From an uncultured Caldisericota bacterium (GTDB lineage Bacteria > Caldisericota > Caldisericia > Caldisericales > Caldisericaceae), in assembly GCA_913055585.1 (NCBI GenBank), contig CAJXKN010000004.1, positions 1-37,310 of the forward strand: a stretch of DNA of 37,310 nucleotides, in the 5' to 3' direction. Shown here piece by piece: positions 12,294-28,153 of this stretch. The notes under the pieces are model-generated. The model ran no database searches, was not told the DNA's origin, and saw nothing but the letters and a program-made list of their open reading frames with translations. Position 1 is the stretch's first letter. Each line of letters opens with the position of its first letter. A program made the translations under genes and the position numbers.

Positions 12294-12298
12294 AGCTA

Positions 12299-13174
12299 TC
12301 ACCCTTTCCAATTATTTTTATAAAGTTCAAGCAAACCTTCATAGAGAAGATTTATGCTCATATCCTGCCTATACTTAAGTGATGCTCTGACATCTGAAAT
12401 AGGCGAAACTTCCCTCCAGGCAAGCTGCGCAATGTAGCGGAGCTTTTCAGGAGAATCAAGAGATTCACTGATTAACGCTTTCTCTACTCTTTCTCCTCTT
12501 ACTACGGTAGGCGCTACTGCTCCGAATGCAACAACTGCTTTATCCATTTTGTTTTTTTCTTCTCCCCTGCCAAGCTTTACCGAAACATTCACTACAGCAA
12601 TGGCAAGAGCGTTCCTCTGCCCTAATTTTTTAAAGAAACCAATTTCCTTCTCTGTCATTTCAGGCATAAAAATATCAACTAACATTTCATTTGTTTTTAA
12701 AACTGTTTTTCCAGGGCCCGTAAAAAAATCTTCTATAGAAATAACCCTTTCTCCCTCACTGCTCAGAAGTTTTAGCTTTGCTTCCTCTGCAAACAGTGCA
12801 GAAATTGAGTCTCCTGCAGGCGAGGCATTCGCTACATTCCCTCCTAATGTTCCTCTGTTTCTTATCTGTGGTGAACCAATCGTGCTGCATGCTTCTCTTA
12901 AAACTGTTGCATATTTCTTTACCTCTTCCGATTCAAGAATCTCGCTGTGCGTTGTAAGGGGAAGAATATGTATTTTTCCATCTTCTCTGTAAATTCCTTT
13001 CAGTTCTCTAATTCTGCTAATGTCAAGAATGTGCTTCTCTTTTACCATATTTTGCTTCAATCTAACAACAAGGTCTGTACCTGCTGCAATAATCTTTATA
13101 TCTTTATCAAACTCATCAAGGTATTGGATTGCTTCTTCAATCGTATTCGCCCTGTAATAATCAAATTTGTTCAC
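12299..13174 (-). CDS. Xanthine dehydrogenase-type FAD-binding subunit
   Basis: About 291 residues of the CoxM/XdhB flavoprotein family, which passes electrons from the 2Fe-2S centres to NAD or another acceptor. The FAD-binding motifs AAGTDLV and TLGGNVANASPAGD (with IRNRGTLGG just before) are clear, followed by the CoxM C-terminal region. A longer frame opens at a TTG at 13207, but GAGAAGGAGG ends 6 nt before a GTG at 13174, and the family start (KFDYYRANTIEEA) follows that GTG, so the GTG is chosen. It overlaps the xdhC-like gene by 14 nt. No obvious residue is missing. Confidence 0.87.
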   Translation of the reverse strand: MNKFDYYRANTIEEAIQYLDEFDKDIKIIAAGTDLVVRLKQNMVKEKHILDISRIRELKGIYREDGKIHILPLTTHSEILESEEVKKYATVLREACSTIGSPQIRNRGTLGGNVANASPAGDSISALFAEEAKLKLLSSEGERVISIEDFFTGPGKTVLKTNEMLVDIFMPEMTEKEIGFFKKLGQRNALAIAVVNVSVKLGRGEEKNKMDKAVVAFGAVAPTVVRGERVEKALISESLDSPEKLRYIAQLAWREVSPISDVRASLKYRQDMSINLLYEGLLELYKNNWKG

Positions 13175-13988
13175 TGTGTGCCTCCTTCTCAGTTTTGATT
13201 TTATCAATCATATCTTTTTGCACTGCAATAATCTCAGCAAGGATTGCAATGCTAATTTCAAAAGGTGTATCTCCTCCTATGGCAATACCAATAGGAGCAT
13301 AAATGCTGTTTAAAAATTCATCACTTACATTTAACTCTCTTGCTTTGTCAAAGCATTTGTTTCTTCTATTTGTGCTACCTATCATTCCGATGTACTGATA
13401 CGTTATCTTCTTTTCATATAAGGCTTTCAGTATGTAGGGGTCATCTTTACCCCCTGTTGTTACAATGACAACGATTGCTCCGTTTCGGAGCGGGAGTGCC
13501 TTAGTTGCATCATAGAGATTATCTTCTACATAGATTGAAGCCTTTGGAAATCTATCTTTATTTGCAAATTCTTTTCTTGTATCTACAACAATAATATCAT
13601 ACGTATTGTCAATGAGAAGTATATCATAGAGCGTTTTGCCGATATGTCCTGCGCCAAAGATAACAAACTGCTGAGTAGTGCCTACATATTCCATATATAT
13701 GGATATGGTACCGCCACATACCATACCTAATGAACTCTTATCGCCTTCTTTTAAAACGTATGTCTTGAAGAGAGGCTTTCTTGTTTTGAACAGATTCATC
13801 GCATTGTCTATTACATCTTTTTCAAGTGTACCACCGCCTACAGTACCAAACGTTGTACGATCAGGCAGAATAATCATTTTAAAGCCTGATTTTCCTGAAG
13901 TAGAAGATTCAGCATTTACAACTGCCGCAAGGACAAACTCCTTTTTATTATGAATGAGCTCTACAATCTTCTCATAAATTTTTTGCAT
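13161..13988 (-). CDS. xdhC: XdhC/CoxI-family molybdenum hydroxylase maturation factor
   Basis: A 275-residue member of the XdhC/CoxI family. These proteins bind molybdenum cofactor, protect it and help its sulfuration and insertion into xanthine dehydrogenase-like enzymes; they are not subunits of the final enzyme. The N-terminal XdhC domain includes FGTVGGGTLE (47-56) and GMVCGGTISIYME (88-100, Cys91). The C-terminal Rossmann domain begins with VIFGAGHIG (109-117) and includes YIGMIGS and APIGIAIGGDTPFEI. GGAGG precedes the ATG and lies in the end of the upstream gene, with a 17-nt overlap. Its place between the cofactor genes and the subunits fits the assigned role. Confidence 0.88.
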   Translation of the reverse strand: MQKIYEKIVELIHNKKEFVLAAVVNAESSTSGKSGFKMIILPDRTTFGTVGGGTLEKDVIDNAMNLFKTRKPLFKTYVLKEGDKSSLGMVCGGTISIYMEYVGTTQQFVIFGAGHIGKTLYDILLIDNTYDIIVVDTRKEFANKDRFPKASIYVEDNLYDATKALPLRNGAIVVIVTTGGKDDPYILKALYEKKITYQYIGMIGSTNRRNKCFDKARELNVSDEFLNSIYAPIGIAIGGDTPFEISIAILAEIIAVQKDMIDKIKTEKEAHSEQI

Positions 13989-14964
13989 TGATAAATCCTC
14001 CCTCTCCCATTGTTACAATTTCTTCTTTTGAGAGGGTATAATCTGCAAGGATGATAGGCATAATTCGGTGAAAGCTCGTACCACTCTTAGCAAGCCCTGC
14101 AGCACCAGGAATACCAAGAACAACTTTCCCATTTTTATAACTAATAAGGAATGTTATGCCAGGCCACATTGGGACTCCGTATGTAACAATATCTACACCC
14201 ATTTCTTTTATACCTTCCGTTGTTCTGTCATCAGGGTCAACAGCCATCCCCCCCATATATATTACAATATCTGCACCATTATCTATTGCAGAGAGAGCAT
14301 TCTGCTTAACTACTGAAGCATCATCAGGGAGAACTTTCCTCAAAAATACATTCTGTCCCATTCCTTCAAGATAATGGATTACATTAAAACTCATTGTTTC
14401 TTTTCTCCGCCCCTCTATGAATTCATTGCCCACAGGGAAAATAGCAATCTTATGCTTTTTAAGGGGAAGGAGATTAATAATAGGATAATGTTCTTCTGCA
14501 ATACGTTTAATCTCTGCCATTTCAGAAATAGGTATCTCTAAAGGCATTACTTTACCCAAAGCAACAGGAGCATTTTTTTCTACAAAACTGAAATTGTATA
14601 CTACTGCAATGCGTGGGTCCTTCAGTTTATTTATCTCTCTTAAGCCCTCAGTATCTATAGTGACTACACCTCTCTTTTCAGCAAAGAGCTTTACTATAGA
14701 TTCACTCGGACTATTAGCATAGAGATTTTTACCTTTTATAGCCTGCATCATTTCATTTGCAGCATCGTCTTCATTAACAAATCCTTCGTCTTTACCTAAT
14801 ATCCATACGTAATGCTTGCCAATAGAGAGAAGCTTTTCAACATCCTCTTCCTTTATAATATGTCCTCTTTTGAAGAGCGGTCCTTTTCTTACACCTGGAA
14901 TAATTTCTGTTACATCACTTCCCAAAACTTTACCTACCGCTTGTTCTGCTTTTACTTTTTCCAT
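13972..14964 (-). CDS. Molybdopterin-binding protein (MoeA/MoaB-like domain)
   Basis: A 330-residue protein with a C-terminal molybdopterin-binding (MoCF) domain. Motifs are KHKIAIFPVGNEF (start of the domain), IVIYMGGMAVDPDDRT (equivalent of the GGxSxGxxD loop) and VPMWPGI/VVLGIPGAAG. The N-terminal 170 residues resemble the first part of MoeA-like proteins found beside molybdenum hydroxylase genes in clostridia. MoeA inserts molybdate into adenylylated molybdopterin; whether this shorter relative does the same or only binds cofactor is not visible. The ATG is preceded by AAAGGC and overlaps the nucleotidyltransferase gene by 13 nt. Confidence 0.8.
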   Translation of the reverse strand: MEKVKAEQAVGKVLGSDVTEIIPGVRKGPLFKRGHIIKEEDVEKLLSIGKHYVWILGKDEGFVNEDDAANEMMQAIKGKNLYANSPSESIVKLFAEKRGVVTIDTEGLREINKLKDPRIAVVYNFSFVEKNAPVALGKVMPLEIPISEMAEIKRIAEEHYPIINLLPLKKHKIAIFPVGNEFIEGRRKETMSFNVIHYLEGMGQNVFLRKVLPDDASVVKQNALSAIDNGADIVIYMGGMAVDPDDRTTEGIKEMGVDIVTYGVPMWPGITFLISYKNGKVVLGIPGAAGLAKSGTSFHRIMPIILADYTLSKEEIVTMGEGGFINAKNL

Positions 14965-15539
14965 AATGCCTTTGCCCTCTCGTAATCCTCTTTTGTATCC
15001 ATATCAAAAAGAATTTTATTATCATTCATCTCAACGAATTGATACATATCAGTATGCCTCCTCAGTATATCCCTCAACGTTGTTTCTTCAGGAGAAGCTG
15101 CAAGAATCTCATCTTTTAAAGAAAAAGGGATAATGATAGGGTGTCCTTTTCTTCCCTTAAACGTCGGGATGAGTATATGCCCATTCTGATAATTTCTTAT
15201 CATTTTGTTAATGATATTTCTATCAATAAGCAAACAGTCAGCAAGCCCTATAAGTACCGCTTCTGCATCTTTTATATTTTTCAACCCCGTTTGAATAGAA
15301 GAGAACATTTCTTTTTTATAATCTTTGTTCACCACAAGCCTGAGTTTATCATTTTTTTTAATAACTTTTTTAATATCGTTTGCCCTGTATCCTAAAACAA
15401 GTACTACTTCTGATAATGACGATGAAAGATATTCTTCAAGTAGTGTTTCTATAACAGTTCTATCCCCTATTGTTAAAAGAGGTTTTAACTTCCCCATTCT
15501 TGTGGATTCGCCTGCTGAAAGTAAAATACCCTTAATCAT
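14952..15539 (-). CDS. mocA: MobA-like nucleotidyltransferase, probable molybdenum cofactor cytidylyltransferase
   Basis: A 195-residue NTP transferase. It has the nucleotide-binding start GILLSAGESTRMGKLKPLL (residues 4-22), the VVLVLGYRA strand, GLADCLLID in place of the usual ADxP metal-binding segment, and KGRKGHPIII. The last motif is typical of MocA, which joins CMP from CTP to molybdopterin to give the dinucleotide cofactor used by xanthine dehydrogenase-family enzymes. The neighbours (2Fe-2S subunit, 8-nt overlap; molybdopterin-binding protein, 13-nt overlap) support MocA over MobA. A second, MobA-type transferase at 22239-22850 serves the formate dehydrogenase operon. Confidence 0.82.
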   Translation of the reverse strand: MIKGILLSAGESTRMGKLKPLLTIGDRTVIETLLEEYLSSSLSEVVLVLGYRANDIKKVIKKNDKLRLVVNKDYKKEMFSSIQTGLKNIKDAEAVLIGLADCLLIDRNIINKMIRNYQNGHILIPTFKGRKGHPIIIPFSLKDEILAASPEETTLRDILRRHTDMYQFVEMNDNKILFDMDTKEDYERAKALWKK

Positions 15540-16002
15540 TTTCCTTGCTTGCTTTCTCCACTGCTTTTATGATTTTTGCATAACCTGTGCAGCGGCAGAG
15601 GTTACCAGAAAGTCCTTCCCTTATTTCCTCTTCCGTTGGATGCGGATTTTCCTTTAAGAGGTAGAGAGAGGACATAATCATACCTGGCGTACAGAAGCCG
15701 CACTGTATTGCACCTTCTTCAACGAACGCTTTTTGTAGAGGATGCAAATGCTCCACTGAGCCTATCCCTTCAATGGTAGTAATCTCAGCCCCATCTGCTT
15801 GAGGCGCAAGAATCAGGCAAGAATTTGCACTTCTTCCGTTGAATAGAATTGTACAGGCTCCACATTCTCCTTTTCCACAGCCTTCCTTTGTGCCTGTAAG
15901 ATGTAGCCTTTCTCTTATTACATCAAGCAAAGTTATATTCACAGGTACTTTTAATGTATATTTCTTTTTATTTACCGTAAGGTTAATTTCCATCTCCTGC
16001 AT
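15532..16002 (-). CDS. Xanthine dehydrogenase-type 2Fe-2S subunit
   Basis: A 156-residue CoxS/XdhC-type iron-sulfur subunit carrying two 2Fe-2S clusters between the molybdenum site and FAD. The plant-ferredoxin-like cluster is bound by C42, C47, C50 and C62 (CGKGECGAC then SC). The second, in the helical domain, uses C101, C104, C136 and C138 (QCGFCTPG and LCRCTGY). Length is standard. AAGGAG lies 6 nt before the ATG at 16002; a second in-frame ATG at 15993 also has AGGAG but would clip the first strand. It is separated from the other enzyme subunits by three maturation genes, an order unlike most coxMLS or xdhABC sets. Confidence 0.92.
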   Translation of the reverse strand: MQEMEINLTVNKKKYTLKVPVNITLLDVIRERLHLTGTKEGCGKGECGACTILFNGRSANSCLILAPQADGAEITTIEGIGSVEHLHPLQKAFVEEGAIQCGFCTPGMIMSSLYLLKENPHPTEEEIREGLSGNLCRCTGYAKIIKAVEKASKEND

Positions 16003-16005
16003 TTT

Positions 16006-17238
16006 TTACTCCTTTTTTGCAAAATAATGCATATCGCTATTTAGCTTTTCTTTCATTCTGATTGCATTTACAGGACAAACCTGCATACACATTGCACAGC
16101 CAACACACTTGTCCTCGTTAACATTGGGCAATCTTTTTTCGCTATCCCAGTCTATTGCTTGATGCCCTCCATCGTTGCATGCTGCATAGCAGAGACCGCA
16201 TCCGATACATTTATCCTCATTAATCTCAGCTTTTGTTTCAGGTGAAGGTAGCTCTTCCTGCGTTTTGATATTTGGTAGTGCCTTTCCTACAATATCCATA
16301 GGTGAGTGAAAGCCCATATCCATCAAATAGTGAGCAAGTCCACTCTTTAAATCTCTTATTGTTCTAAAGCCGTAATGCATAGGCAGAGTGCAGAATTGGA
16401 CATTTGAAGCACCTACACTCATAAATTCTACCGCATCTCTCCAGTTGAATGCGCCACCGTTACCCGAGATTGTAATGTCCACATTCTTTGCAATTTCTGC
16501 AATGGTTCTCAGTGTGATAGGCTTAATTGCAGGACCTGAAAGGCCAGAATACGTACCTTTACCAAAAAGTGTGGGGTACGGCTCAAATGTTTTTATATCA
16601 ACACCTAAAAGCGATGGAATGGTATTGCTTGCAGTGATACCATCCGCGCCGCCGCTTTTTACTGCTTTCGCTACTTCAACAATATCCGTTACCTGTGGAG
16701 TTATTTTGATAAGCACTGGCGTGTCTCCTGCTGCTTCTTTCACCCATCCTGTAACTTTTTCTGTTGCTTCTATGCTCTGTGCAAGCATTCTGCCAGGTGC
16801 TTCTCCCATGCTTCCCTGAGGGCAACTGAAACTGCACTCAATAAGATCAACTCCTGCTTTTTTGAGTCTCCAGACGAGCGTTTGCCAATCTTCTTTCTTT
16901 GAGCCCATAATGGATGCTGCAATCATTTTATCCGGAAATGCTTCTTTCAATGCTTTTACACGTTTTACAATTTCATTGATATGGTACTGTGATATGAGAT
17001 CAATATTACCCAATCCTGTAATTCTGTGGTCTGTTGCAAATGAAGACATCATCGGATACTTTAGGGGCACAGGATTTCCTTCAATAGAGGTTGTCTTTAA
17101 TATCACACCTGCCCATCCTGCTTTTAATCCATTGTATGCAATTTCCAGCTCATCCGTACTGGGAGAAGCGGAAAGTATAAATGGACTATCCAGGTGAATC
17201 CCTAAAAAATCTATAGAAAGATCTTTTTCTTTATACAT
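16006..17238 (-). CDS. preA: Dihydropyrimidine dehydrogenase-type FMN/4Fe-4S subunit (PreA-like)
   Basis: A 410-residue flavoprotein: an FMN TIM barrel of the dihydroorotate/dihydropyrimidine dehydrogenase type followed by two 4Fe-4S clusters near the C terminus (CIGCGLCYAAC and CVGCAMCMQVCP). With PreT it would reduce uracil or thymine with NAD(P)H, or run in reverse. The active-site loop reads SCPQGSMGEAPGRMLAQ and shows no cysteine matching the catalytic one of mammalian enzyme (in ACGQ), so the substrate is left open. A TTG at 17265 would extend the frame, but GGAGGGAG lies 6 nt before the ATG at 17238, which overlaps the preT stop by 8 nt; the ATG is chosen. Confidence 0.85.
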   Translation of the reverse strand: MYKEKDLSIDFLGIHLDSPFILSASPSTDELEIAYNGLKAGWAGVILKTTSIEGNPVPLKYPMMSSFATDHRITGLGNIDLISQYHINEIVKRVKALKEAFPDKMIAASIMGSKKEDWQTLVWRLKKAGVDLIECSFSCPQGSMGEAPGRMLAQSIEATEKVTGWVKEAAGDTPVLIKITPQVTDIVEVAKAVKSGGADGITASNTIPSLLGVDIKTFEPYPTLFGKGTYSGLSGPAIKPITLRTIAEIAKNVDITISGNGGAFNWRDAVEFMSVGASNVQFCTLPMHYGFRTIRDLKSGLAHYLMDMGFHSPMDIVGKALPNIKTQEELPSPETKAEINEDKCIGCGLCYAACNDGGHQAIDWDSEKRLPNVNEDKCVGCAMCMQVCPVNAIRMKEKLNSDMHYFAKKE

Positions 17239-18499
17239 TTTTTTCTCCCTCCATATATTTAACAATACTCTCAGCAGCTTTCTTACCCTGAGCTACACTT
17301 TCAACAATCGTGCTCGGCCCTTTTACAATATCACCTCCAGCAAAAACACCTTTTACATTTGTTGACATATCATCATTAACCTTTATCAATCCTCTTTCAT
17401 CTTTTTCTATTTCAGGGAAGAAGTTACTGGCTTTCTGCCCTATAGCAATAACAATGAGATCAAGAGGAATGAAAAAGTCAGAATGAGGGATAGGCTCAGG
17501 ATGCCTTCTTCCTGAAGCATCTTTTTCTCCGAGATGTGCCCTTGTTACAACAACTCCTTCTACTCTCTCTTTCCCTTTAATTTCTTTTGGAATGGCAAGG
17601 AACTGGAATGTTACACCAGAATCTATCGCCTCTTCAATTTCTTTCTTAAACGCTTTTAGCTCTTTTTCACTTCTCCTATATATAACCTCTACATCTGAGT
17701 TAGGATACTCCCTCTTCAATACAGATGCTACCTCTAAAGCAACGTTTCCACCTCCTATGACACCTGCCCTTTTGAAGATTTGTGGTTTAATGCCAACTTT
17801 TGCCTTTTTTAATATTTCCCTTGCTTGATACACACCTTTTAATGTTGTATTAGGTATGTTCAGGTTAAGCTCATCGGGAAGGCCTGTTGCAATAAAAACT
17901 GCTTTAAAATCTTCATTCAATTCTTTTAATGATGTTATTTTTATATCTTTTGTTTGGTAGATAAAATTGTGGTGAATGAATTTCACTTCTTTTTGGCTTA
18001 TATTCTCAGGAAGGCGTATTTTGGATATTTCATTTACAGGGATGCCTCCAAGCTGCTTTTTCTCAAAAATAACAGGTTTATAACCCTGTCGCCTCAACTC
18101 TACTGCACAGGCAAGGCCAGCAGGTCCTCCACCTATAATAGCAACTTTTTCTTTTGTGGCAGGCTTAAGCTCCAAGTTCTCCGAAGGATTCGTATTGTCC
18201 GTTATATATCTGTGAAGTTCTCTAATCCTAATAGGTGTATCAACCTTTGCCCTTGTACAAGCACTCTGGCAGAAGCTCTCCTCAGGGCATACCCTGCCGC
18301 AGATTTCAATAAGAGGATTTGCTTCTCGAATAATTTCCTGTGCACCTTTTAAATTGTCCGTACGAATAGATTGGATAAACTCCGGAATAGGAACATTTGC
18401 AGGGCAGGCTGCCTGACACGGTGCATCATAACAATAGAGGCACCTTTTAGCTTCCACTATTGCCTGTTCCTTTGAAAATGTCTTCTCAATTTCCTCCAT
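17231..18499 (-). CDS. preT: NAD(P)H-oxidising flavoprotein, GltD/PreT-like
   Basis: A 422-residue homologue of the glutamate synthase small subunit and PreT. Eight cysteines in the N-terminal helical domain (C20, C23, C28, C32, C67, C71, C77, C81) bind two 4Fe-4S clusters. The FAD motif AIIGGGPAGLACA is near residue 120 and the NAD(P) motif GVIGGGNVALEVAS near 245, ending with GVFAGGDIVKGPSTIVE. It shuttles electrons between NAD(P)(H) and a partner, here PreA next door (8-nt overlap) and perhaps the molybdenum hydroxylase. AAAGGAG is 6 nt before the ATG, and a near-consensus promoter lies at 18532-18559, making it the first gene of the operon. Confidence 0.87.
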   Translation of the reverse strand: MEEIEKTFSKEQAIVEAKRCLYCYDAPCQAACPANVPIPEFIQSIRTDNLKGAQEIIREANPLIEICGRVCPEESFCQSACTRAKVDTPIRIRELHRYITDNTNPSENLELKPATKEKVAIIGGGPAGLACAVELRRQGYKPVIFEKKQLGGIPVNEISKIRLPENISQKEVKFIHHNFIYQTKDIKITSLKELNEDFKAVFIATGLPDELNLNIPNTTLKGVYQAREILKKAKVGIKPQIFKRAGVIGGGNVALEVASVLKREYPNSDVEVIYRRSEKELKAFKKEIEEAIDSGVTFQFLAIPKEIKGKERVEGVVVTRAHLGEKDASGRRHPEPIPHSDFFIPLDLIVIAIGQKASNFFPEIEKDERGLIKVNDDMSTNVKGVFAGGDIVKGPSTIVESVAQGKKAAESIVKYMEGEKNV

Positions 18500-18531
18500 A
18501 CTCTACTCCTTTCTATCTTTATTTATAAACG

Positions 18532-18559
18532 ATTATACATTTATTCATCAAGCTGTCAA
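18532..18559 (-). promoter_or_regulatory. Promoter of the molybdenum hydroxylase/purine operon
   Basis: On the minus strand TTGACA (18554-18559) and TATAAT (18532-18537), both perfect consensus hexamers, are 16 bp apart. The predicted start near 18525 gives a 26-nt leader with AAAGGAG. I see no clear operator palindrome around it, so strong expression of the whole operon is inferred. Confidence 0.85.
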
Positions 18560-18678
18560 GGAACGTTTAGCTCCGCAGGGTTTAAGTTGTTATATCCTTT
18601 ATTTCTTTATAGCTTTGTTACTGCATTTTTCGTAGAGCCTTGATAAATACTAAAAATAAATCGTATTAAAAGGGAAGT

Positions 18679-18974
18679 TATGAAAAAAGTATTGCAGTAT
18701 GGATTGTTTTAGCGCTTTTGTAATGCCGAGAAAAACAGGATAGCAATGCCAATTGAACAATTTAATGCAGGAGTAAAACCTATAACAATCCTTATGAAGG
18801 AACGTAATATTCCATTAAAAAACATTTTACACCGTAAAGATGTCGCCTCTGATATTATCCATCATTCAAATACTACTTATTTTATTATATGACAAATAAA
18901 AATATAATCAAAAAATAGACTTTGATAAGGCAATTCGGGCTATTGACAAATCTGAAAAAGATATTAAACTGTAA
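18679..18974 (+). pseudogene. Decayed ORF(s), possible lipoprotein remnant
   Basis: The 534-base gap 18500-19033 holds no intact gene but shows coding debris on the plus strand. After GGGAAGTT an ATG (18679) starts MKKVLQYGLF then a stop. In another frame the same bases read WIVLALL, stop, CREKQDSN, which looks like a lipoprotein signal and lipobox broken by a stop and a frameshift. A 48-codon open frame follows at 18746-18892, then a tail reading IDFDKAIRAIDKSEKDIKL before TAA at 18972-18974. I cannot name the parent protein. The tail is homologous to the segment just upstream of the DUF3800 gene (19994-20023). Confidence 0.35.
18921..18950 (+). repeat. Copy 1 of an inverted, homologous coding fragment flanking the DUF3800 gene
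   Basis: Thirty bases that translate to FDKAIRAIDK and match, in opposite orientation, 19994-20023 (FDEAIRQFDK). About 24 of 30 bases agree, and similarity continues downstream at protein level (SEKDIKL against SEPDKLL). Confidence 0.6.
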
Positions 18975-18996
18975 ATAATATGAGGGCGTAAAGCCG

Positions 18997-19019
18997 ATGG
19001 GGGGAATATTTCCCCCCAT
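18997..19019. repeat. Type-B-like hairpin between the DUF3800 gene and decayed ORF
   Basis: Perfect 8-bp stem ATGGGGGG/CCCCCCAT around a 7-base loop, 15 nt past the DUF3800 stop. It resembles the GAGGGGGT/ACCCCCTC repeats elsewhere in the window. It could stop transcription, but no run of U follows on either strand. Confidence 0.6.
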
Positions 19020-19033
19020 AGCATTTTGTAGAG

Positions 19034-19963
19034 TTATGGTAGGAACTTTTGATATATCAACTTACCCGAGTGGTTAATAAATTCCAATATTGGCTCAACC
19101 TCAAAATGTTTGTATTTATTATAAATCGTATTTTCTATAGATTTTCTTGAAGCAGAAACTATAATATCTGACAGATGAATCCCATTAATCAAGTCTTTAC
19201 CAATCTCATATGAATATTTGTCAACATAATAACGAATTTGTTTAAGTTTGGAAGGGTATTTAGGCAAGGAATGAATATGCCATTTGATGTTATTAATATT
19301 ATTGCTACTCTTTTTATATCTTGGAAAGTGGTTTCGCTGAATAACTTTTCCCTTTTTGGGAAAAACAATGCCCAATTCCCTAATCATAAATCTTTTAAGC
19401 TCTTTGTCTTTTCCTTTAGTTCTTGACTCAAACCAGACTCTTATAACCTTATCTGTATTTTTCTTAGATTGCCAAATATAACCAGCGCTTCTTTCCATAA
19501 TTATAGTGGGGGCAAGTTCGTATGGATTCGAAGCATTCTCTTCATACTTATTTAACATTTTCACTTTGTCTATATGCACAATATTAAATACAAAATCTAC
19601 ATTAATAATTGCATTAATAATTGCATTGAGATGTTTTTTGAGCAATTCTGGTTTGTTTTTATACATAGTAAAATTTCCTTTACCTGCTAACATATCCGAA
19701 AGATGAGTTACTGTATCTTCGTTTCCATAGAGCTCTTGCTTAACTTTTTTCATTGCAGGAATAAACGATTCTACTAAATCTTTACCACTTACTAATAGAC
19801 CAGCAAGTGAAAAAAAGGTAACATTGCTGGGATCTGGTCTGAATTCTATCCAATTATTTTGTCGCTTAAATCTACGAAGCCTTTTGTAATTTGCATCTCC
19901 AGATTCATCAAGAAACAAATGCCAGCTATTCGTATCAATTTCTTTTATTTTATCCATTTTCAT
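19034..19963 (-). CDS. DUF3800 domain protein
   Basis: A 309-residue protein of the DUF3800 family, function unknown. The N-terminal signature WHLFLDESGD (about residues 14-23) with its acidic residues and the C-terminal GIHLSDIIVSA with another aspartate are the conserved points. DUF3800 genes tend to lie in accessory regions and near mobile elements. This one is a lone gene in a decayed, repeat-rich stretch, which suggests acquisition by transfer. Two candidate starts, M1 (19963) and M3 (19957), have no good ribosome binding site. The frame stays open about 30 codons upstream (reading FDEAIRQFDKISEPDKLLSY) without a standard start codon, so the present N terminus may be a truncation or a fusion scar. 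Confidence 0.75.
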   Translation of the reverse strand: MKMDKIKEIDTNSWHLFLDESGDANYKRLRRFKRQNNWIEFRPDPSNVTFFSLAGLLVSGKDLVESFIPAMKKVKQELYGNEDTVTHLSDMLAGKGNFTMYKNKPELLKKHLNAIINAIINVDFVFNIVHIDKVKMLNKYEENASNPYELAPTIIMERSAGYIWQSKKNTDKVIRVWFESRTKGKDKELKRFMIRELGIVFPKKGKVIQRNHFPRYKKSSNNINNIKWHIHSLPKYPSKLKQIRYYVDKYSYEIGKDLINGIHLSDIIVSASRKSIENTIYNKYKHFEVEPILEFINHSGKLIYQKFLP

Positions 19964-19993
19964 ATATGATAATAATTTATCTGGTTCTGATAT

Positions 19994-20023
19994 TTTGTCA
20001 AATTGCCGAATTGCCTCATCAAA
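19994..20023 (-). repeat. Copy 2 of the inverted coding fragment, in frame upstream of the DUF3800 gene
   Basis: On the minus strand this reads FDEAIRQFDK in the same frame as the DUF3800 gene and continues without a stop into its ATG. It pairs in inverted orientation with 18921-18950, bracketing about 1.1 kb that contains the gene. Confidence 0.6.
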
Positions 20024-20141
20024 AACAATTTTTGTTGAAAAACAAAAGAGAAGATTAACACATTAATTAAAGGAGAGCAAATTTTAATTTAAGGGATGCA
20101 TTTTCCCTCAGGACTTCTCTTAAAAAAGAAAAGGGGAAAGA

Positions 20142-20452
20142 GAGATGCTAAAACAAGACTTGGCTTAACAACCAAAGAAAAAGCAGCACAGCATGACATT
20201 CTTTTTTGTCACCATAGACTCGTTTCAGGGTCTATTAATTTGAGGGGGTTAAAAAGCACCCCCTCAATGCTCCTATTTTTTTCGTCACCCTGAACTCGTT
20301 TCAGGGTCTATTTTTTAAAGACAAAGGAGGAGATGCTGAAACAAGTTCAGCATGACGAAGTAAAAACAAAAGAGAGATTCCGGACCAAACCCGGAATGAC
20401 AGGATAGAGAAGAGAGAGATACTGAAACAAGACCTGGCTTAATGGCCAATGA
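20142..20452. repeat. Intergenic cluster of dispersed hairpin repeats (cluster 3)
   Basis: No gene is seen in this stretch between the DUF3800 gene and bioY. Elements in order: type D at 20142-20197 with outer ATGCT/AGCAT arms and a decayed inner stem; a damaged type A at 20208-20233 (left arm ACCATAGA no longer matches TTCAGGGT); type B at 20242-20265, identical to 29-52; type A at 20284-20309; type C at 20330-20356, identical to 80-106; type E at 20374-20400; and a truncated type D at about 20416-20452. The order A-B then C-E mirrors clusters 1 and 2. Confidence 0.9.
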
Positions 20453-20560
20453 AAAATTAAAGAGTAAACTATTCTTTAATTGTTTTAGCACCTGAAGATA
20501 ATAAAAGATTTAAATAATAGATAGCTCAGTTTACCTCGGTAATTAAAAGTTAATGTGGAG

Positions 20561-21070
20561 TTAAGCTCTTACCTTTTTTATCTTATTTGCTGTAAGGACT
20601 GCAATCAAAGCTTTTATTATATCTATAGCTATGAAGGGGATAACTCCAACAGCAAATGCCTTTTTAAAATCTCCCATAAATATTCCTAACCTAAGCCAGC
20701 CAAAAAGATATATTATAATGACTCCAGCAAGTGAGGCAATTAAGTAATTCATAAAACTATTTTTCTTTTTGCTTATCCAGCCAACTATCATTGCAGCTAC
20801 AGGGAAAGCAAGCAAATATCCTCCTGTTGGTCCATAGAGATAAACGATTCCTCCTGCAAAATGAGCAAACACGGGTAGTCCTAAAGCACCCATAAATAGG
20901 TATATAGCCTGGCTTAGAAATCCGAGACGCGCTCCCAGTAGTAACCCAGAGAGTAAAACAAAAAATAGCTGTAACGTAACAGGCACAGGTCCTATTGGAA
21001 TTGATATCTCTGCTCCGACTATAGTTAAAGCAGTAAATAAAGCAGTATACGTTATGTCTCTCGGTTTTAT
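20561..21070 (-). CDS. bioY: Biotin transporter substrate-binding protein BioY, with ATA at the expected start
   Basis: An integral membrane protein of the BioY family, the substrate-specific (S) component of energy-coupling-factor transporters for biotin. About six hydrophobic segments, the PLGPVPVTLQ-like region (PIGPVPVTLQLFF), LGARLGFLSQAIYLFMGALG and GGIVYLYGPTGGYLLAFP are clear. A conventional start is only available as GTG at 20986, giving 141 residues and cutting off the first helix. Upstream in frame the family N terminus continues (KPRDITYTALFTALTIVGA) to an ATA codon at 21068-21070, which is preceded by AAGGAG with 8-nt spacing. I extend to that ATA, giving 169 residues, the normal family length. 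It is either a non-standard start or a mutated or misread ATG. No EcfA or EcfT genes are nearby. Confidence 0.8.
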   Translation of the reverse strand: MKPRDITYTALFTALTIVGAEISIPIGPVPVTLQLFFVLLSGLLLGARLGFLSQAIYLFMGALGLPVFAHFAGGIVYLYGPTGGYLLAFPVAAMIVGWISKKKNSFMNYLIASLAGVIIIYLFGWLRLGIFMGDFKKAFAVGVIPFIAIDIIKALIAVLTANKIKKVRA

Positions 21071-21146
21071 TTCAGCATCTCCTTCTCTATGTTTTTCATT
21101 GGATATTTTAGTCTTCTCTTAAACATTTGCAAACCTTCGAATTGAA

Positions 21147-21201
21147 TCATTAAAAATCTATATGAAATAGCAACGCTACTTCATTAAAATCTATATGAAA
21201 A
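21147..21201. repeat. Pair of direct repeats flanking an 11-bp palindrome, upstream of bioY
   Basis: Two near-identical copies of about 20 bp (TCATTAAAAATCTATATGAA at 21147-21166 and TCATTAAAATCTATATGAAA at 21181-21200) are 14-15 bp apart. Between them is TAGCAACGCTA (21168-21178), an inverted repeat TAGC/GCTA. This sits 80 to 130 bp before the bioY start. It could be an operator or a recombination footprint. Confidence 0.6.
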
Positions 21202-21227
21202 TTTTTAAAAGGAGGTGATACAATATT

Positions 21228-21277
21228 GTCATCCTGTATTCCTTTCCTTGGATGTTTTTGTACCAAGTCTTGTTTCA
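21228..21277 (-). repeat. Single type-D hairpin element, reversed
   Basis: A reversed copy of the type-D repeat with inner arms CTTGG/CCAAG. Its left end carries the usual GTCA, and its right end (TTGTTTCAG) runs directly into the coding remnant at 21278. Confidence 0.7.
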
Positions 21278-21470
21278 GTAAACTTAAATCCTGTAGAACT
21301 AAAGAGAGAATTGGATAAACTACAGAGGAAACTATCAAGAGCATATGAGAAAAAACTTCCAATATACCAAATATATCCCCTCTGAAAAATGATAATTTCG
21401 TATATAACTTTAATTAGGCAACCAAATGAGTTTCTTATAGAAAATTAAATGAGGCAACACGATTTTGTGG
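21278..21470 (+). pseudogene. Possible insertion-sequence remnant (transposase tail)
   Basis: On the plus strand 21278-21385 reads VNLNPVELKRELDKLQRKLS and on to a stop, a charged helix like the C-terminal tails of integrase-core transposases. Beyond the stop, two copies of AGGCAAC (21416-21422 and 21452-21458) fit the repeated terminal motifs of such elements. No catalytic domain remains and the left side is replaced by a hairpin repeat. The rest of 21471-21574 shows nothing I can name. Family assignment is by general resemblance only. Confidence 0.35.
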
Positions 21471-21574
21471 TAAACAGAAAATAAAAACAAACCTCAAGGT
21501 TTGAAGTTACTGATAAATATATCCTTTATCATCAGACAAAAGAGATGCCTAATATTTCGGCGTATATAAAATAA

Positions 21575-22267
21575 CTAAATTTTTATCCGCTCAGGGTGAG
21601 TGTAAATATTAAATCTGTTGCCTCTAAGAAAACCTATCAGTGTAATATTATTATCTTTTGAAAGATTAATCGCTCTATCCGTTACTGCTGAGCGAGAAAC
21701 AATAATTTTTATTCCCAGGCGTTTCCCATATTCTACTGTTTTCCTATTTATTCTGCCGCTTGTAAAAAGTATTTTTGCATTTCTAAAATCTTCCTGCATT
21801 ATGATTTTTCCAATCGCTTTCTGTACGCTACTTCGCCTTGAAATATCTTCGAATGCATTAATAAGCTTTTCACCGTTTGATATACCTGAGATGTGTGTAC
21901 CACCTGTTAGCTTGAATATCTCACTTCTGGATAAAAGCTCATCCATCAGTCCGAAGAGTTCTTTGGGATGTATTTCTATTTTCCCTGTATTGCTATGGAA
22001 GTTCTTTGATTTTTTTGTAACAACCGAAACTACGTAAAAAGAACCTTCTTGTGCTAATTTTATATCTGTTATATCAGATGCTCTATTTATGAAACGTTCC
22101 GTATAGAGATAGCCGTGTATTAGCTCAGTAAGTGCTTCGTCGGAGCATACAATAATACTCTCAAATGTATTATTCACAAATAAACGGAGTTCTTTTTCCT
22201 CTGTTACAAGATCCTTTTTAATAATGAATGCTCCTCTATTAAACTGAGTAATCTTTTCTTTTTTCAT
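21575..22267 (-). CDS. fdhD: Formate dehydrogenase accessory sulfurtransferase FdhD, divergent
   Basis: A 230-residue FdhD-family protein, the factor that passes sulfur from a cysteine desulfurase to the molybdenum cofactor so that formate dehydrogenase becomes active. Family features seen are LTELIHGYLYTERFI, LTGGTHISGIS (120-130), AFEDISRRSSVQKAIGK (equivalent of EDVGRHNAxDKxIG), LFTSGRINRKTVEY, IIVSRSAVTDRAI and GFLRGNRFNIYTH. The Cys-x-x-Cys loop expected near residue 90 reads NFHSNTGKI instead, and the only cysteine is C41. The ATG at 22267 has no clear ribosome binding site and overlaps mobA by 29 nt. Last gene of the formate operon. Family confidence is high; sulfur transfer is doubtful. 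Confidence 0.85.
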   Translation of the reverse strand: MKKEKITQFNRGAFIIKKDLVTEEKELRLFVNNTFESIIVCSDEALTELIHGYLYTERFINRASDITDIKLAQEGSFYVVSVVTKKSKNFHSNTGKIEIHPKELFGLMDELLSRSEIFKLTGGTHISGISNGEKLINAFEDISRRSSVQKAIGKIIMQEDFRNAKILFTSGRINRKTVEYGKRLGIKIIVSRSAVTDRAINLSKDNNITLIGFLRGNRFNIYTHPERIKI

Positions 22268-22850
22268 TTGTATATAATGTTACTCTGTCCAGATCATTCT
22301 TAGTATTGATATTGAAAAAAGATAGAAACTCAGGATCTATTTTCTCAATCTCCTTCTCCTCAATGTACTGCACATTGGAGAGCGGGAGGAGAGAGCGAAG
22401 AGGATATTTTTTCTCTTGCAGAAGTTTTTGTACCGTTTTAAAAAGCCTTCTGCTGTAAAATGCAAATAAGGGTTCAACCATGCCATTTTTAAAACGTGGA
22501 ATGTATATATCAGTTTCTGCTTTTAATGTATCTCTCATATAAACAACTAAATCCATTTTTATGAATGGCATATCGCAAGCAGTAAGAAAAATAGTTTCTG
22601 TATTTGAATAACAGAAAGCAGTGTAAAGTCCGCCTAAAGGTCCTGCATTCTTTATTTTATCAGGAACAGAATGTAAAGAAGGGAAAGCCACTTCTCTTCC
22701 TACAAGAAGTGGCTCTACCCCAAAGCTGTTTTTTAAAATGACAAAAGTTCTACAAAGTATAGAATTACCTTTTATACGAAGATGTACTTTATCCTTGCCT
22801 AGTCTTCTGCTTTTTCCACCAATAAGTATTACAGGTTTAATTTTTGTCAA
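22239..22850 (-). CDS. mobA: Molybdenum cofactor guanylyltransferase
   Basis: A 203-residue MobA-type enzyme that adds GMP to molybdopterin, making the guanine dinucleotide cofactor used by formate dehydrogenase and other DMSO-reductase-family enzymes. Motifs: VILIGGKSRRLGKDK (residues 7-21; here IGG for the usual LAGG), NAGPLGGLYTAF, the metal-binding LTACDMPFI and FFNINTKNDL near the end. It overlaps the formate channel gene by 14 nt and fdhD by 29 nt, so all three are probably translated together. Context separates it from the MocA-like enzyme at 14952-15539. Confidence 0.88.
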   Translation of the reverse strand: MTKIKPVILIGGKSRRLGKDKVHLRIKGNSILCRTFVILKNSFGVEPLLVGREVAFPSLHSVPDKIKNAGPLGGLYTAFCYSNTETIFLTACDMPFIKMDLVVYMRDTLKAETDIYIPRFKNGMVEPLFAFYSRRLFKTVQKLLQEKKYPLRSLLPLSNVQYIEEKEIEKIDPEFLSFFNINTKNDLDRVTLYTNEKRKDYSV

Positions 22851-23694
22851 AAACTGGTTTCTCCTTTTTAAGATAAATATACCAGTAAATCATGCCAACA
22901 AAAAATGCACCACCTATGATGTTGCCAATTGTTACAGCAATAAGATTATGTGTGATGAAAGTACCCCAATTAAGCCCGTTAAAGAAAGATGCGGATTTTC
23001 CTGTCGCATTTATAACTGAAGGGACACCTTTCAAGAAAATACCGTATGGAATGAAGAACATATTTGCAACACTGTGTTCAAATCCTGAAGCAACAAATGC
23101 CATTATTGGAAAATAAATCGCAAAGATTTTTCCTACGACATCCTTTGCAGATGTTGCCATCCATACGGCAAGGCAAACAAGCCAGTTGCAGCCAATGCCA
23201 CGCATTAGTGCTTGCATAAACGTAAGATGAACTTTCGCATTGGCGATATTTATTGCCGTTGCACCAACAGCACTTCCATTTGTAGCCCAGAGCCCTGAGT
23301 AAAACATCATCACTACGATAATGATAGAACCAACAAAGTTACCCAAGTAAACAATACCCCATGCTTTAAATAACTCACTCCACCTAATTTTTTTCTCCAG
23401 AGCAGCAATTACAATAAGATTATCCCCAGTGAAGAGTTCACTTCCTGCGATAACGACAAGCATAAGTCCTACGCTAAAGACACTGCCGCCAAGGAATTTT
23501 GCAAAGCCAACACTCATCCTTGCTCCCACATCATGGCTTACCATAATGGATAGTTCAGCGCCAAATGCAATGAATGCACCCGCAAGAATAGCGAGAACAA
23601 AAAACTTTTTTGTAGGGATGCGGCACTTTCCATAACATGCTTCTTTAATTTTTTCAGCAATTTGCTTTGGTAAAAAAAGATTTAGATCACTCAT
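22837..23694 (-). CDS. Formate/nitrite transporter family channel
   Basis: A 285-residue membrane protein of the FocA/FdhC/NirC family, pentameric channels for formate, nitrite or related small anions. Six hydrophobic helices are visible, with the family signatures GAFIAFGAELS, AGSELFTGDN, GNFVGSIIIV, GIGCNWLVCLAVWMA and the SGFEHSVANMFFIP segment containing the central histidine (H of FEHSVANM). Placed 15 nt after the formate dehydrogenase gene and before mobA and fdhD, it is most likely a formate channel. AGGAGG precedes the ATG. Whether it imports or exports depends on the direction of the pathway, which the sequence does not tell. Confidence 0.9.
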   Translation of the reverse strand: MSDLNLFLPKQIAEKIKEACYGKCRIPTKKFFVLAILAGAFIAFGAELSIMVSHDVGARMSVGFAKFLGGSVFSVGLMLVVIAGSELFTGDNLIVIAALEKKIRWSELFKAWGIVYLGNFVGSIIIVVMMFYSGLWATNGSAVGATAINIANAKVHLTFMQALMRGIGCNWLVCLAVWMATSAKDVVGKIFAIYFPIMAFVASGFEHSVANMFFIPYGIFLKGVPSVINATGKSASFFNGLNWGTFITHNLIAVTIGNIIGGAFFVGMIYWYIYLKKEKPVFDKN

Positions 23695-23709
23695 TTCTTA
23701 ATACCTCCT

Positions 23710-26430
23710 TTATATTTTTTGAATTTTACAAGCAGCTACTTTATATTCAGGAATCTTTGCAACAGGGTCAAGCACAGGATTAGTCAAAACATTTGCTGCA
23801 GCCTCTTTAAAGTGGAAAGATACAAATACAACACCTGGTTTAGGTCTATCAGATATGCGTGCATTTAGTTTAATACTCCCTCTCCGTGTAGAAACTTTTA
23901 CCATTTCATTATCTTTAATATTTAGTTTTTCTGCATCAATAGGATTTATTTCTATGTAATTGTGCGGAACAAACGTATCAAGCACTTTAACCCTTCTTGT
24001 TTCATTACCTGAGTGGTAATGGTAAAGTATCCTTCCAGTTGTAAGTACAAATGGATATTCACTATCAGGCAGTTCTTTTGGAGCTTTGTACTCAACAGGC
24101 GAGATAAGTCCTTTTCCATTTGGGCGCTTAAAATGTCCGTCTCTGTGGAGAATCTTTGTGCCAGGATGATTATCATCTATGCAAGGCCACTGCAATCCCT
24201 GCTTTTCAAGCCTGTAGTGGTGAATACCTGCATAGGATGGAGTAAGAGATGCTATCTCATCTGCAATTTCCGAACTGTTTTTATAATTCATAGGGTACCC
24301 CATTGCAGTTGCAACCTCGCAAACAATTTCCCAATCAAATTTTGTCCCCTCTGGTTTTTCCCTTGCAATTCTTAAGAGCTGTACTCTTCTCTCACTATTT
24401 GTAAAAGTACCATCCTTTTCGTATGCGGCAGCTGCAGGGAATACAACATCTGCAAGTTCTGCCGTTTCTGAAAGGAAAATATCCTGCACAGCAAGAAATT
24501 CTAAACTTTCAATACCTTTACGTACAGATTTTATGTCAGGTTCGCTCATCATAGGATTTTCTCCCATAATATAAATAGCTTTAAGTTCCCCTGCTATTGC
24601 CTTTTCTCCGAATTCTGAAACAGGAATGCCAATCTTTGAAGGTAGCTTTACACCCCATGCTTTCTCAAATTTTTCCCTTACTTTATCATCAGTTACCTTC
24701 TGATACCCAGGGTATACATTTGGCAAAGCACCCATATCACAGGCACCCTGAACGTTTGCTTGTCCTCTTAAAGGATTAATACCTGTGCCTTCCCTTCCTA
24801 AATTTCCAGTAATAAGAGCAAGATTTGCGATGCTTAATACATTATCTGTGCCTGTTGTATGCTGTGTAATACCCATCGTATAGAAAATTACTGCATTTTT
24901 TGCCTTACCGTAAATTTCGGCAGCTTGCTTGATAAGATTCTTGTCTACTCCTGTAATTTTGGAAACAGTATTAAGGTCATATTTTTCTACAACTTCCTTA
25001 AATTTTTCAAATCCTTCCGTGTGTGCTTCTATGAATTCCTTATCAATGAGTCCTTCATCAATAATCACTTTCATTATGCCATTTAGTAATGCAACATCAC
25101 TTCCCGGGTTGTGCTGAATGAAAAGGTCACTAGCTTTTGCGATATCTGTCTTTCTCGGGTCACACACGATGAGTTTTGCACCATCATCTCTCTGATGCTT
25201 CTTTACAATCTGAGAAAGTACAGGATGTGTTTCAGTCATATTAGAGCCTATAACAAACATTACATCAGCATCTTTTATATCGTCAAAAGAATTTGTTGCA
25301 GCCCCTGCACCGAGTGCTCTACCAAGTCCTGCAACTGTAGAAGAATGACAGAGCCGTGCACAGTTATCCACATTATTTGTACCAATTACTGCTCTTGCAA
25401 ATTTCTGCACAACATAATTATCCTCATTAGTGCACCGTGAAGAGCCTAAAACGCCAATTGAATCAGGGCCGTACTTCTCTTTAATCTCTCTCAATCGTTT
25501 TGCAGTGTACTTAATTGCTTCATCCCAGGTGGCTTTTCTGAATTTACCATTCTCTTTAATTAATGGACTGGTAAGCCTATCTTTGCTGTTTACATACTCA
25601 TAGCCAAACCTTCCTTTTACGCACGTCCTGCCGTCGTTTACCAGTGGGTTTTTAATCCCTTTTGCCATCACAAGGTTGTTATTCTTGTCTTTGTACAGTC
25701 TCAAATTACATCCTACTCCACAGTATGCACAAATTGTATCAGTTGGCTCAAGCTGAAAGATTTTTCCTTTGCCAACTCTTGGTTTTTCAATTAATGCTGC
25801 AGTAGGGCATGCTTGAACACACTCACCACAGAACTGACAATCTGTTTGTTCCAAAGGTAATGTGAAAGGAGTAGAAACAACTGACTTGTATCCTCTCATT
25901 GCTATACCAATTGCCTCAACAATTGCTTGATTTTCACAGGCATTTACACACCGTCCGCACAAAATACATTTTTGAGGATCAAGCTGAATAAATGGGTTTG
26001 TATCCCAGGACGTTTCTTTCGGAACCTCAAAAGCTTCTTTATCATCAAGGAATTCGCTTTTCTTTATACCGAACTCGTATGCAAGGTTTTGTAATTCACA
26101 ATCTCCATCCTCATCGCACGTCATACAGTCAAGCGGATGGTGTGCCAGAGCAAGTTCAAGATTCATCTTTCTTGCTTCCCTAACAAGAGGAGTGTTTGTA
26201 AAAATTTCCATTCCTTCTTTTACTCTGGTAATACAGGAACGCTTTAACGTTCTTTCTCCTTTTACCTCTACCACACAAACACCGCAGGAGCCTTCTTCTG
26301 AAATACCTTCAAGATAACAAAGCGTAGGAATGTTTATCCCTGCTTTTCTGCAAGCATCCAAAATTCTTGTTCCTTCTTCTACCTGATAGTCTTTTCCATC
26401 AATTTTTACATTAATAAGTTTATCACTCAT
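23710..26430 (-). CDS. NAD-linked formate dehydrogenase, catalytic (molybdenum/tungsten) subunit
   Basis: A 906-residue enzyme interconverting formate and CO2. Domains in order: NuoG-like 2Fe-2S (C38, C49, C52, C66); His-Cys 4Fe-4S (H98, C102, C105, C111); two ferredoxin-type 4Fe-4S clusters (C155-C165 and C198-C208); the molybdopterin-domain cluster (C234, C237, C241, C270); the bis-MGD catalytic domain; and the C-terminal dinucleotide-binding domain. The active site reads NCARLCHSST, with Cys361 and His362, so this is a cysteine enzyme, not a selenocysteine one, and no in-frame TGA is needed. AGGAGG lies in the end of the upstream gene, with an 8-nt overlap (ATGAGTGA). No signal peptide, so cytoplasmic. 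Molybdenum versus tungsten is not decidable here. Confidence 0.93.
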   Translation of the reverse strand: MSDKLINVKIDGKDYQVEEGTRILDACRKAGINIPTLCYLEGISEEGSCGVCVVEVKGERTLKRSCITRVKEGMEIFTNTPLVREARKMNLELALAHHPLDCMTCDEDGDCELQNLAYEFGIKKSEFLDDKEAFEVPKETSWDTNPFIQLDPQKCILCGRCVNACENQAIVEAIGIAMRGYKSVVSTPFTLPLEQTDCQFCGECVQACPTAALIEKPRVGKGKIFQLEPTDTICAYCGVGCNLRLYKDKNNNLVMAKGIKNPLVNDGRTCVKGRFGYEYVNSKDRLTSPLIKENGKFRKATWDEAIKYTAKRLREIKEKYGPDSIGVLGSSRCTNEDNYVVQKFARAVIGTNNVDNCARLCHSSTVAGLGRALGAGAATNSFDDIKDADVMFVIGSNMTETHPVLSQIVKKHQRDDGAKLIVCDPRKTDIAKASDLFIQHNPGSDVALLNGIMKVIIDEGLIDKEFIEAHTEGFEKFKEVVEKYDLNTVSKITGVDKNLIKQAAEIYGKAKNAVIFYTMGITQHTTGTDNVLSIANLALITGNLGREGTGINPLRGQANVQGACDMGALPNVYPGYQKVTDDKVREKFEKAWGVKLPSKIGIPVSEFGEKAIAGELKAIYIMGENPMMSEPDIKSVRKGIESLEFLAVQDIFLSETAELADVVFPAAAAYEKDGTFTNSERRVQLLRIAREKPEGTKFDWEIVCEVATAMGYPMNYKNSSEIADEIASLTPSYAGIHHYRLEKQGLQWPCIDDNHPGTKILHRDGHFKRPNGKGLISPVEYKAPKELPDSEYPFVLTTGRILYHYHSGNETRRVKVLDTFVPHNYIEINPIDAEKLNIKDNEMVKVSTRRGSIKLNARISDRPKPGVVFVSFHFKEAAANVLTNPVLDPVAKIPEYKVAACKIQKI

Positions 26431-28153
26431 TGCTACCTCCTTCAGCTTTCTTATCTTCTATGTATCCCATCCATTCATCCCTAAACTTTTTTATAGAGTC
26501 CACAATAACATTAGAAGCGGTCTGACCCAAAGGGCAGAGAGCCGTTAATCGCATATCCTTTCCAAGGCGTTCAAGGGTATCAAGATCTCTCTCTTTTCCT
26601 CTTCCTTTTGAAATCCTATCTATTATTTTATACATTTGCTCGGTACCAACTCTACCGGGTGTGCATTTTCCACAGCATTCCCGTCTGAAGAAATAAGCAA
26701 TATTCTTTGCAATATCTACAATATCTCTTGTTTCATCCATAACCATTATGGCACCAGAGCCAGGCCCAGCACCTATGGTTGCAAGTGAGTTAAAATCAAC
26801 AGGAGTGTCAAATTGATCAGGAGTAAGAAGGAATCCAGATACTCCTCCAAGAATTATAGCCTTGAGTTTTTTGCCATTCTTTACTCCACCACCAAACTTA
26901 TTTACAATCTCTGAAAGTGGCGTACCGAAAGGGGCTTCAACGGCACCTTTCCAGTTAATATCTCCTGACAAGCTAAAAAGCTTTGTTCCATAAGAGCCAG
27001 GAACTCCAATTTTCCTGTACCAATCCGCGCCATTTGCAATAATTAATGGTACATTAACAAATGTTTCGACATTATTAATAACTGTAGGCTTTCTAAATAA
27101 TCCATAAGCAGGAGGATAGGGTGGTTTTTTTCTTGGCTCTCCCCTATGCCCTTCAATTGATTCCATAAGAGCTGTCTCTTCTCCAACAACATAGGAGCCT
27201 GCTCCCCTATGAACCTCAATATCAAATGAAAAACCACTTCCTAAAATATTCTTACCAAGAAAACCACGGCTTCTTGCATCTTTTATTGCTTTTTCCATCC
27301 TTTTTATTGAAAGACTGTATTCACCTCTTATATAGATGTAACCATATTTACAACCTGCTGCAAATGCTGCAATAATCATTCCTTCAATAACAGAGTGAGG
27401 ATTCCCTTCCATTATTACCCTGTCCTTAAAGGTACCTGGCTCACCTTCATCTGCATTGCAAATTAAGTACTTGTCGGAACCCAGAGCTTTTGCCGTAAAT
27501 TCCCATTTCTTTCCAGTTGGAAATCCTGCCCCGCCTCTTCCTCTGAGTTCTGACTTTTTAATTTCATCAATTACCCATTGAGGTCCGTTGCTAATTGCCT
27601 TTTTAAGAGCACCATAACCACCTGAAGCAATATATTCATCAATACTTTCAGGATTAATCACTCCGACATTCTTTAGTAACACTCTTCCATGTGCTGGAAG
27701 GATCTGCACTGCAGGATATCCTTTTTTAGCCTTTCCGTTTCTTACTTCCTTTATAATTTCAGGAATCTGATCCGGGGTAAGGTTGCCAAAAGGAATTTCA
27801 TCAATCATCATCGCAGGAGCAATAGAACACATTCCAAGGCAGCTACTTCCTTCAAGGGTAAATTCACCATCATTTGTTGTCTCTCCGATTCCAATACCAA
27901 GTACTTCTTCAAGTTTTTTAATTACATCTTTCCCCTTTCCCATATGGCAGGAAAGGCCTCTGCATACCCTTATGATATGCTTACCTCGAGGTTTTATGGA
28001 AAACATTGAATAAAAAGTTGCAAATCCATAAACCTTTGACAGGGGTAGCTTATTCCTAACAGCCACGGAAAGTGCATCCTCAAGCGAAATGAAGTTTTTA
28101 TTGTTTTCACCTTGAGCTTCATACAAAGCATCCGTTAATGACTTTTCTTTCAT
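26423..28153 (-). CDS. NuoE-NuoF fusion, NADH-binding diaphorase subunit of formate dehydrogenase
   Basis: A 576-residue flavoprotein. Residues 1-115 are a NuoE-type domain with a short helical part and a 2Fe-2S thioredoxin fold (C64, C69, C105, C109). From about residue 155 it is NuoF-like: GRGGAGFPTGKKW (205-217) for FMN and NADH, CNADEGEPGTFKDR, and the C-terminal 4Fe-4S motif CCGKCTPGR with a later Cys in LCPLGQTA. It lacks the extra ferredoxin domain found at the C terminus of HydB/HymB proteins. The layout recalls HoxF. With the catalytic subunit it would pass formate electrons to NAD+. AAGGAGG precedes the ATG. A decayed NuoE N-terminal domain lies 25 nt upstream. Confidence 0.92.
   Translation of the reverse strand: MKEKSLTDALYEAQGENNKNFISLEDALSVAVRNKLPLSKVYGFATFYSMFSIKPRGKHIIRVCRGLSCHMGKGKDVIKKLEEVLGIGIGETTNDGEFTLEGSSCLGMCSIAPAMMIDEIPFGNLTPDQIPEIIKEVRNGKAKKGYPAVQILPAHGRVLLKNVGVINPESIDEYIASGGYGALKKAISNGPQWVIDEIKKSELRGRGGAGFPTGKKWEFTAKALGSDKYLICNADEGEPGTFKDRVIMEGNPHSVIEGMIIAAFAAGCKYGYIYIRGEYSLSIKRMEKAIKDARSRGFLGKNILGSGFSFDIEVHRGAGSYVVGEETALMESIEGHRGEPRKKPPYPPAYGLFRKPTVINNVETFVNVPLIIANGADWYRKIGVPGSYGTKLFSLSGDINWKGAVEAPFGTPLSEIVNKFGGGVKNGKKLKAIILGGVSGFLLTPDQFDTPVDFNSLATIGAGPGSGAIMVMDETRDIVDIAKNIAYFFRRECCGKCTPGRVGTEQMYKIIDRISKGRGKERDLDTLERLGKDMRLTALCPLGQTASNVIVDSIKKFRDEWMGYIEDKKAEGGSNE

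Follow-up and report, generated by a model that had tools for sequence, protein, structure and literature searches.

Initiation at AUA is rare in bacteria but known, and it involves no new mechanism. The non-AUG start of infC serves autoregulation by IF3. In Staphylococcus aureus, infC, ccpN and citZ start at AUA with approximately 10-30% of the strength of AUG, as proven by Ribo-Ret and reporters; in poor medium the AUA reporters yielded about 10% of the AUG level, and ccpN reached up to 30% in rich medium (PMC13009471). The AUA of ccpN is also conserved in B. subtilis (PMC13009471). High levels of IF3 repress non-canonical starts, and re-initiation is strengthened by a Shine-Dalgarno (SD) sequence (PMC2268962).

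Near-cognate starts are also found in the family of the uncultured Caldisericota bacterium analyzed here. Within this family, infC starts with ATT after GGAGGT at all 15 loci outside genome G003 that cover the start, the home genome included (locus L051 on contig C88, where the next standard start lies 26 codons downstream; the others fall within L041-L054 and L057), and G003 carries ATA in place of ATT (L055). Standard gene callers would truncate IF3 in most of these genomes, and the ATT and ATA starts indicate that near-cognate start codons occur in this uncultured lineage.

We analyzed a 37,310-nucleotide stretch of contig CAJXKN010000004.1 (hereafter, the window), in which a bioY gene lacks any standard start able to give the full-length protein. 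The features concerned are as follows.

20561-21070, minus strand: bioY, encoding the S component of a biotin ECF transporter; counted from the ATA, 169 codons and a stop
20984-20986, minus strand: GTG, the first standard in-frame start; a protein begun here would be 28 residues shorter and lack the first membrane helix
21067-21126, minus strand: short out-of-frame ORF, MFKRRLKYPMKNIEKEMLK, whose TAA stop overlaps the ATA as ATAA
21068-21070, minus strand: candidate ATA start codon, aligned with the ATG of four same-family orthologues, 8 nt after AAGGAG
21079-21084, minus strand: Shine-Dalgarno sequence AAGGAG, spaced 8 nt from the ATA
21105-21133, minus strand: promoter-like site, TTTGCA/TTGCAA - TAAAAT, which would imply a leader about 28 nt long
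21119-21121, minus strand: in-frame TAA closing the BioY frame upstream

The open BioY frame extends from 21118 to 20564, ends with a stop at 20563-20561 and covers the whole PF02632 (BioY) profile (positions 1-140; E = 1.4e-44; 151.8 bits against a curated cut-off of 25). The solved BioY structure, the S component of an ECF biotin transporter (PDB 4dve), gives a full-length match that includes helix 1 (E = 1.3e-15) and begins at residue 17 of the 185-aa frame, which is the ATA codon; the start codon is the only difference from this system. Because the alignment starts there, the stretch between the ATA and the GTG encodes the first membrane helix. The protein retains all 20 columns in which conservation across 34 homologues reaches 90% or more, no internal stop was found in the frame, and the differences from the orthologue in G013 fall mostly at third codon positions (30, 16 and 62 at positions 1, 2 and 3). 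Relative-rate counts revealed no consistent acceleration of the home copy. By family membership, the product is predicted to be a biotin transporter, and the gene looks alive and otherwise intact.

BioY was present in 43 of 61 related genomes searched. The four nearest orthologues (G013, G012, G010 and G016), all of the same family, are 70-76% identical, and in each of them an ATG aligns with the ATA column; they read ATG AAA ACA AGA GAT ATA ACA or similar, against ATA AAA CCG AGA GAC ATA ACG in the home gene. In G012, G010 and G016, a stop lies 5-10 codons upstream, which leaves the aligned ATG as the only standard start there. More distant BioY homologues start at varied nearby positions, none clearly at ATA. 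The home genus is represented by one genome, the ATG-bearing relatives belong to other genera, and a protein search of genome contigs returned only two distant homologues and thus no further genome of this species. The simplest history suggested by these alignments would be a single G-to-A transition at the third base of the start codon. In a separate observation, the BioY of G013 (L002) is 76% identical to the home protein, while those of three congeners of G013 (L034-L036) are only about 35% identical, possibly reflecting horizontal transfer or a paralogue swap.

These results bear out a preliminary description of the locus made from its sequence. That description had placed the N-terminal BioY helix upstream of GTG 20986, in agreement with the 4dve and orthologue alignments, and had reported no ATG, GTG or TTG before an in-frame stop; the minus-strand sequence indeed contains none between the TAA at 21121-21119 and the GTG at 20986-20984. 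Its placement of an ATA at 21070-21068 exactly where family members begin, one base away from ATG, is supported by the ATG of the four orthologues in that column, and the comparison of close relatives that it had proposed has thereby been made. The AAGGAG that it located 8 nt before the ATA was checked at 21084-21079. It read the ATA as either a rare AUA start, a mutation from ATG that could cripple the gene, or an error of sequencing.

The same AAGGAG precedes the bioY ATG of G012 and G016 by 4 nt. Across 331 kb sampled from the home genome, 117 of 235 real starts were preceded by a six-base SD at a distance of 4-11 nt, compared with 2.2% of internal codons and 2.8% of internal ATA codons. 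The start region of bioY is also unusually unstructured (z = +2.3). The short upstream ORF is opened by two out-of-frame AUGs, at 21126 and 21099, and shows no conservation in relatives. Similar short ORFs lie upstream of 34 of 235 sampled genes (14.5%), so we regard it as background whose overlap with the ATA is probably due to chance. Promoter-like sites in the region were not enriched over shuffles (6 found, 4.7 expected), and no riboswitch or other leader RNA was matched by Rfam in the window.

Several other elements surround the gene. Upstream, TTTCATATAGATTTT(A/T)AATGA recurs at an interval of about 35 nt within 21150-21205, and a terminator-like hairpin lies at 21184-21162; three terminator-like sites were found in the region, with 0.7 expected. 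Downstream, at 20200-20430, phrases such as gaacttgtttcagcatctc and ccctgaaacgagttcagggtga recur in both orientations and look like a dispersed intergenic repeat. The minus-strand run at 8642-28153 encodes xanthine-dehydrogenase-like subunits, an amidohydrolase, MobA-like proteins and a PreA/PreT-like pair, together with FdhD, a formate/nitrite transporter and an NAD-linked formate dehydrogenase. From these gene identities, assigned partly by Pfam and otherwise by reading, the run resembles a set of genes for the degradation of purines or pyrimidines next to formate metabolism.

The use of ATA in the rest of the genome was surveyed in the window plus 15 further stretches, a total of 331 kb or about a quarter of the assembly, in which a codon-usage scan kept 237 genes. 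Among these, bioY showed the strongest coding signal in the interval from its inferred coding start to its first standard start, and the other genes listed by the scan look like ordinary arrangements of an SD plus a start. No second clear case of a non-standard start was found among the 237 genes, which rules out a genome-wide habit of starting at AUA. Likewise, in about 60 crudely paired orthologues whose relative has an SD-preceded start, bioY alone lacks a standard start at or near the aligned codon. Home ATA codons align in relatives with Ile (363), Val (78) and Met (35); because Ile predominates, the genetic code is standard, and recoding of AUA as Met is ruled out.

Biotin uptake is probably needed by this bacterium. 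Neither bioB, which exceeded the curated cut-off in none of 18 family genomes, nor bioD, which was not found in the home genome, accompanies the biotin ligase domain and the biotin carrier domain with AMKM that the genome encodes. In the home genome, whose assembly is 75.5% complete, one BioY was seen and no other recognised gene for biotin uptake, and EcfT was likewise not found in this incomplete assembly.

Taken together, the comparison suggests that bioY is probably an intact gene whose ATG became ATA through a single G-to-A transition and which is translated weakly from AUA with the help of its SD. The initiator tRNA would still initiate at this codon, weakly, with the start site kept in place by the six-base SD at 8 nt and the unstructured leader. 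A C34-A mismatch at the third codon base would lower the efficiency of the site and probably make it IF3-sensitive. The first residue would be fMet, giving a predicted N-terminus of (f)MKPRDITYTALF..., and a low yield may be tolerable because little BioY is needed. We favor weak AUA initiation because of the infC precedent in the family, the AUA genes of S. aureus and the reported effect of IF3. It was also among the options of the preliminary description, and it gains from the conservation of the gene, its position as the sole recognised biotin-uptake gene and its strong SD. Against a working start stand published reporters, which put AUA yields well below those of AUG, and the finding that none of the bioY homologues inspected starts at ATA. 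There is a slight chance that the ATA has been fixed and selected in the species, with an IF3-sensitive start, to which the overlapping upstream ORF may contribute, setting the level of BioY synthesis; vitamin uptake would then be linked to the state of the translation machinery.

The remaining explanations differ in what they make of the ATA itself. The species may carry ATG and the ATA may be a consensus error or minor-strain variant in the assembled metagenome, a reading to which we give a modest chance. The single base that separates ATA from the relatives' ATG is compatible with it, as is the nature of the source, a draft genome of 140 contigs, 75.5% complete and the sole representative of its genus in the comparison. 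However, when 118 ORFs that have a relative at 45% identity or more were screened, none proved to be frame-broken, and it is unlikely a priori that a lone substitution error would fall precisely on a start codon. Seven pairs that looked like split genes turned out to be a tandem pair or shadow ORFs lying antisense to conserved genes. It is somewhat less likely still that a recent loss of the start codon has effectively silenced bioY and left an early pseudogene. AUA is a weak start, and the intactness of the gene is compatible with such a loss because a recent event would leave the remainder unchanged. Yet the SD has been kept, the gene shows no decay, and no second recognised route to biotin was seen (no bioB, no bioD and one BioY), although a second transporter could be missing from an incomplete genome. 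A biotin ligase and a biotin carrier domain are present, and the loss would be costly in a lineage without bioB.

Other explanations would move initiation away from the ATA or supply it from upstream. The protein might once have begun at AUG 21126 or 21099, with an A in front of TAAAA now missing through mutation or error; the out-of-frame ORF adjoins the BioY frame, from which it differs by one base. We consider such a deletion improbable, because a stop 5-10 codons upstream obliges three of the four close orthologues to begin at the aligned ATG, the SD is correctly spaced for the ATA, and short ORFs of this kind precede 14.5% of genes. Programmed frameshifting from the upstream ORF was rejected, as no slippery motif was present and the ORF occurs at background frequency. 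Re-initiation at the AUA after termination of the overlapping ORF would suit the ATAA geometry and the SD, which is known to strengthen re-initiation (PMC2268962); nevertheless, the ORF is not conserved in relatives and is no more frequent than background, and the promoter-like site, itself unsupported, would put the mRNA start after AUG 21126, so that we hold this route to be very improbable. Equally improbable is a start at GTG 20986, the first standard in-frame codon and the choice expected of automatic annotation. It lies close to the beginning of the Pfam BioY model, and its product would begin MPVTLQ, but that product would lose the first membrane helix shared by the solved BioY and every full-length homologue, and the coding signal upstream of the GTG is the strongest in the sample. 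S components contact EcfT through an AxxxA motif of the first membrane helix; we take ALFTA in the first helix of the home BioY to be this motif, which initiation at the GTG would remove.

AUA starts are seldom annotated, and gene callers consequently trim or drop such genes; here, the called BioY would lack its first helix. Should the start prove real, a transporter gene would join the short list of AUA-initiated bacterial genes.

Among known systems, the infC genes of the same family resemble bioY in their near-cognate starts, ATT at 15 loci and ATA in G003. The non-AUG start of infC is conserved, whereas the relatives of bioY retain ATG. The infC, ccpN and citZ genes of S. aureus share with bioY the AUA start proposed for it, a strong SD and a standard genetic code, and they too are ordinary genes. 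They differ in possessing an extended SD, in contrast to the six-base SD of bioY, a vitamin transporter gene known from the sequence of one genome. Compared with these systems, the home bioY would represent a further example of an AUA start, in a new gene and a new lineage.
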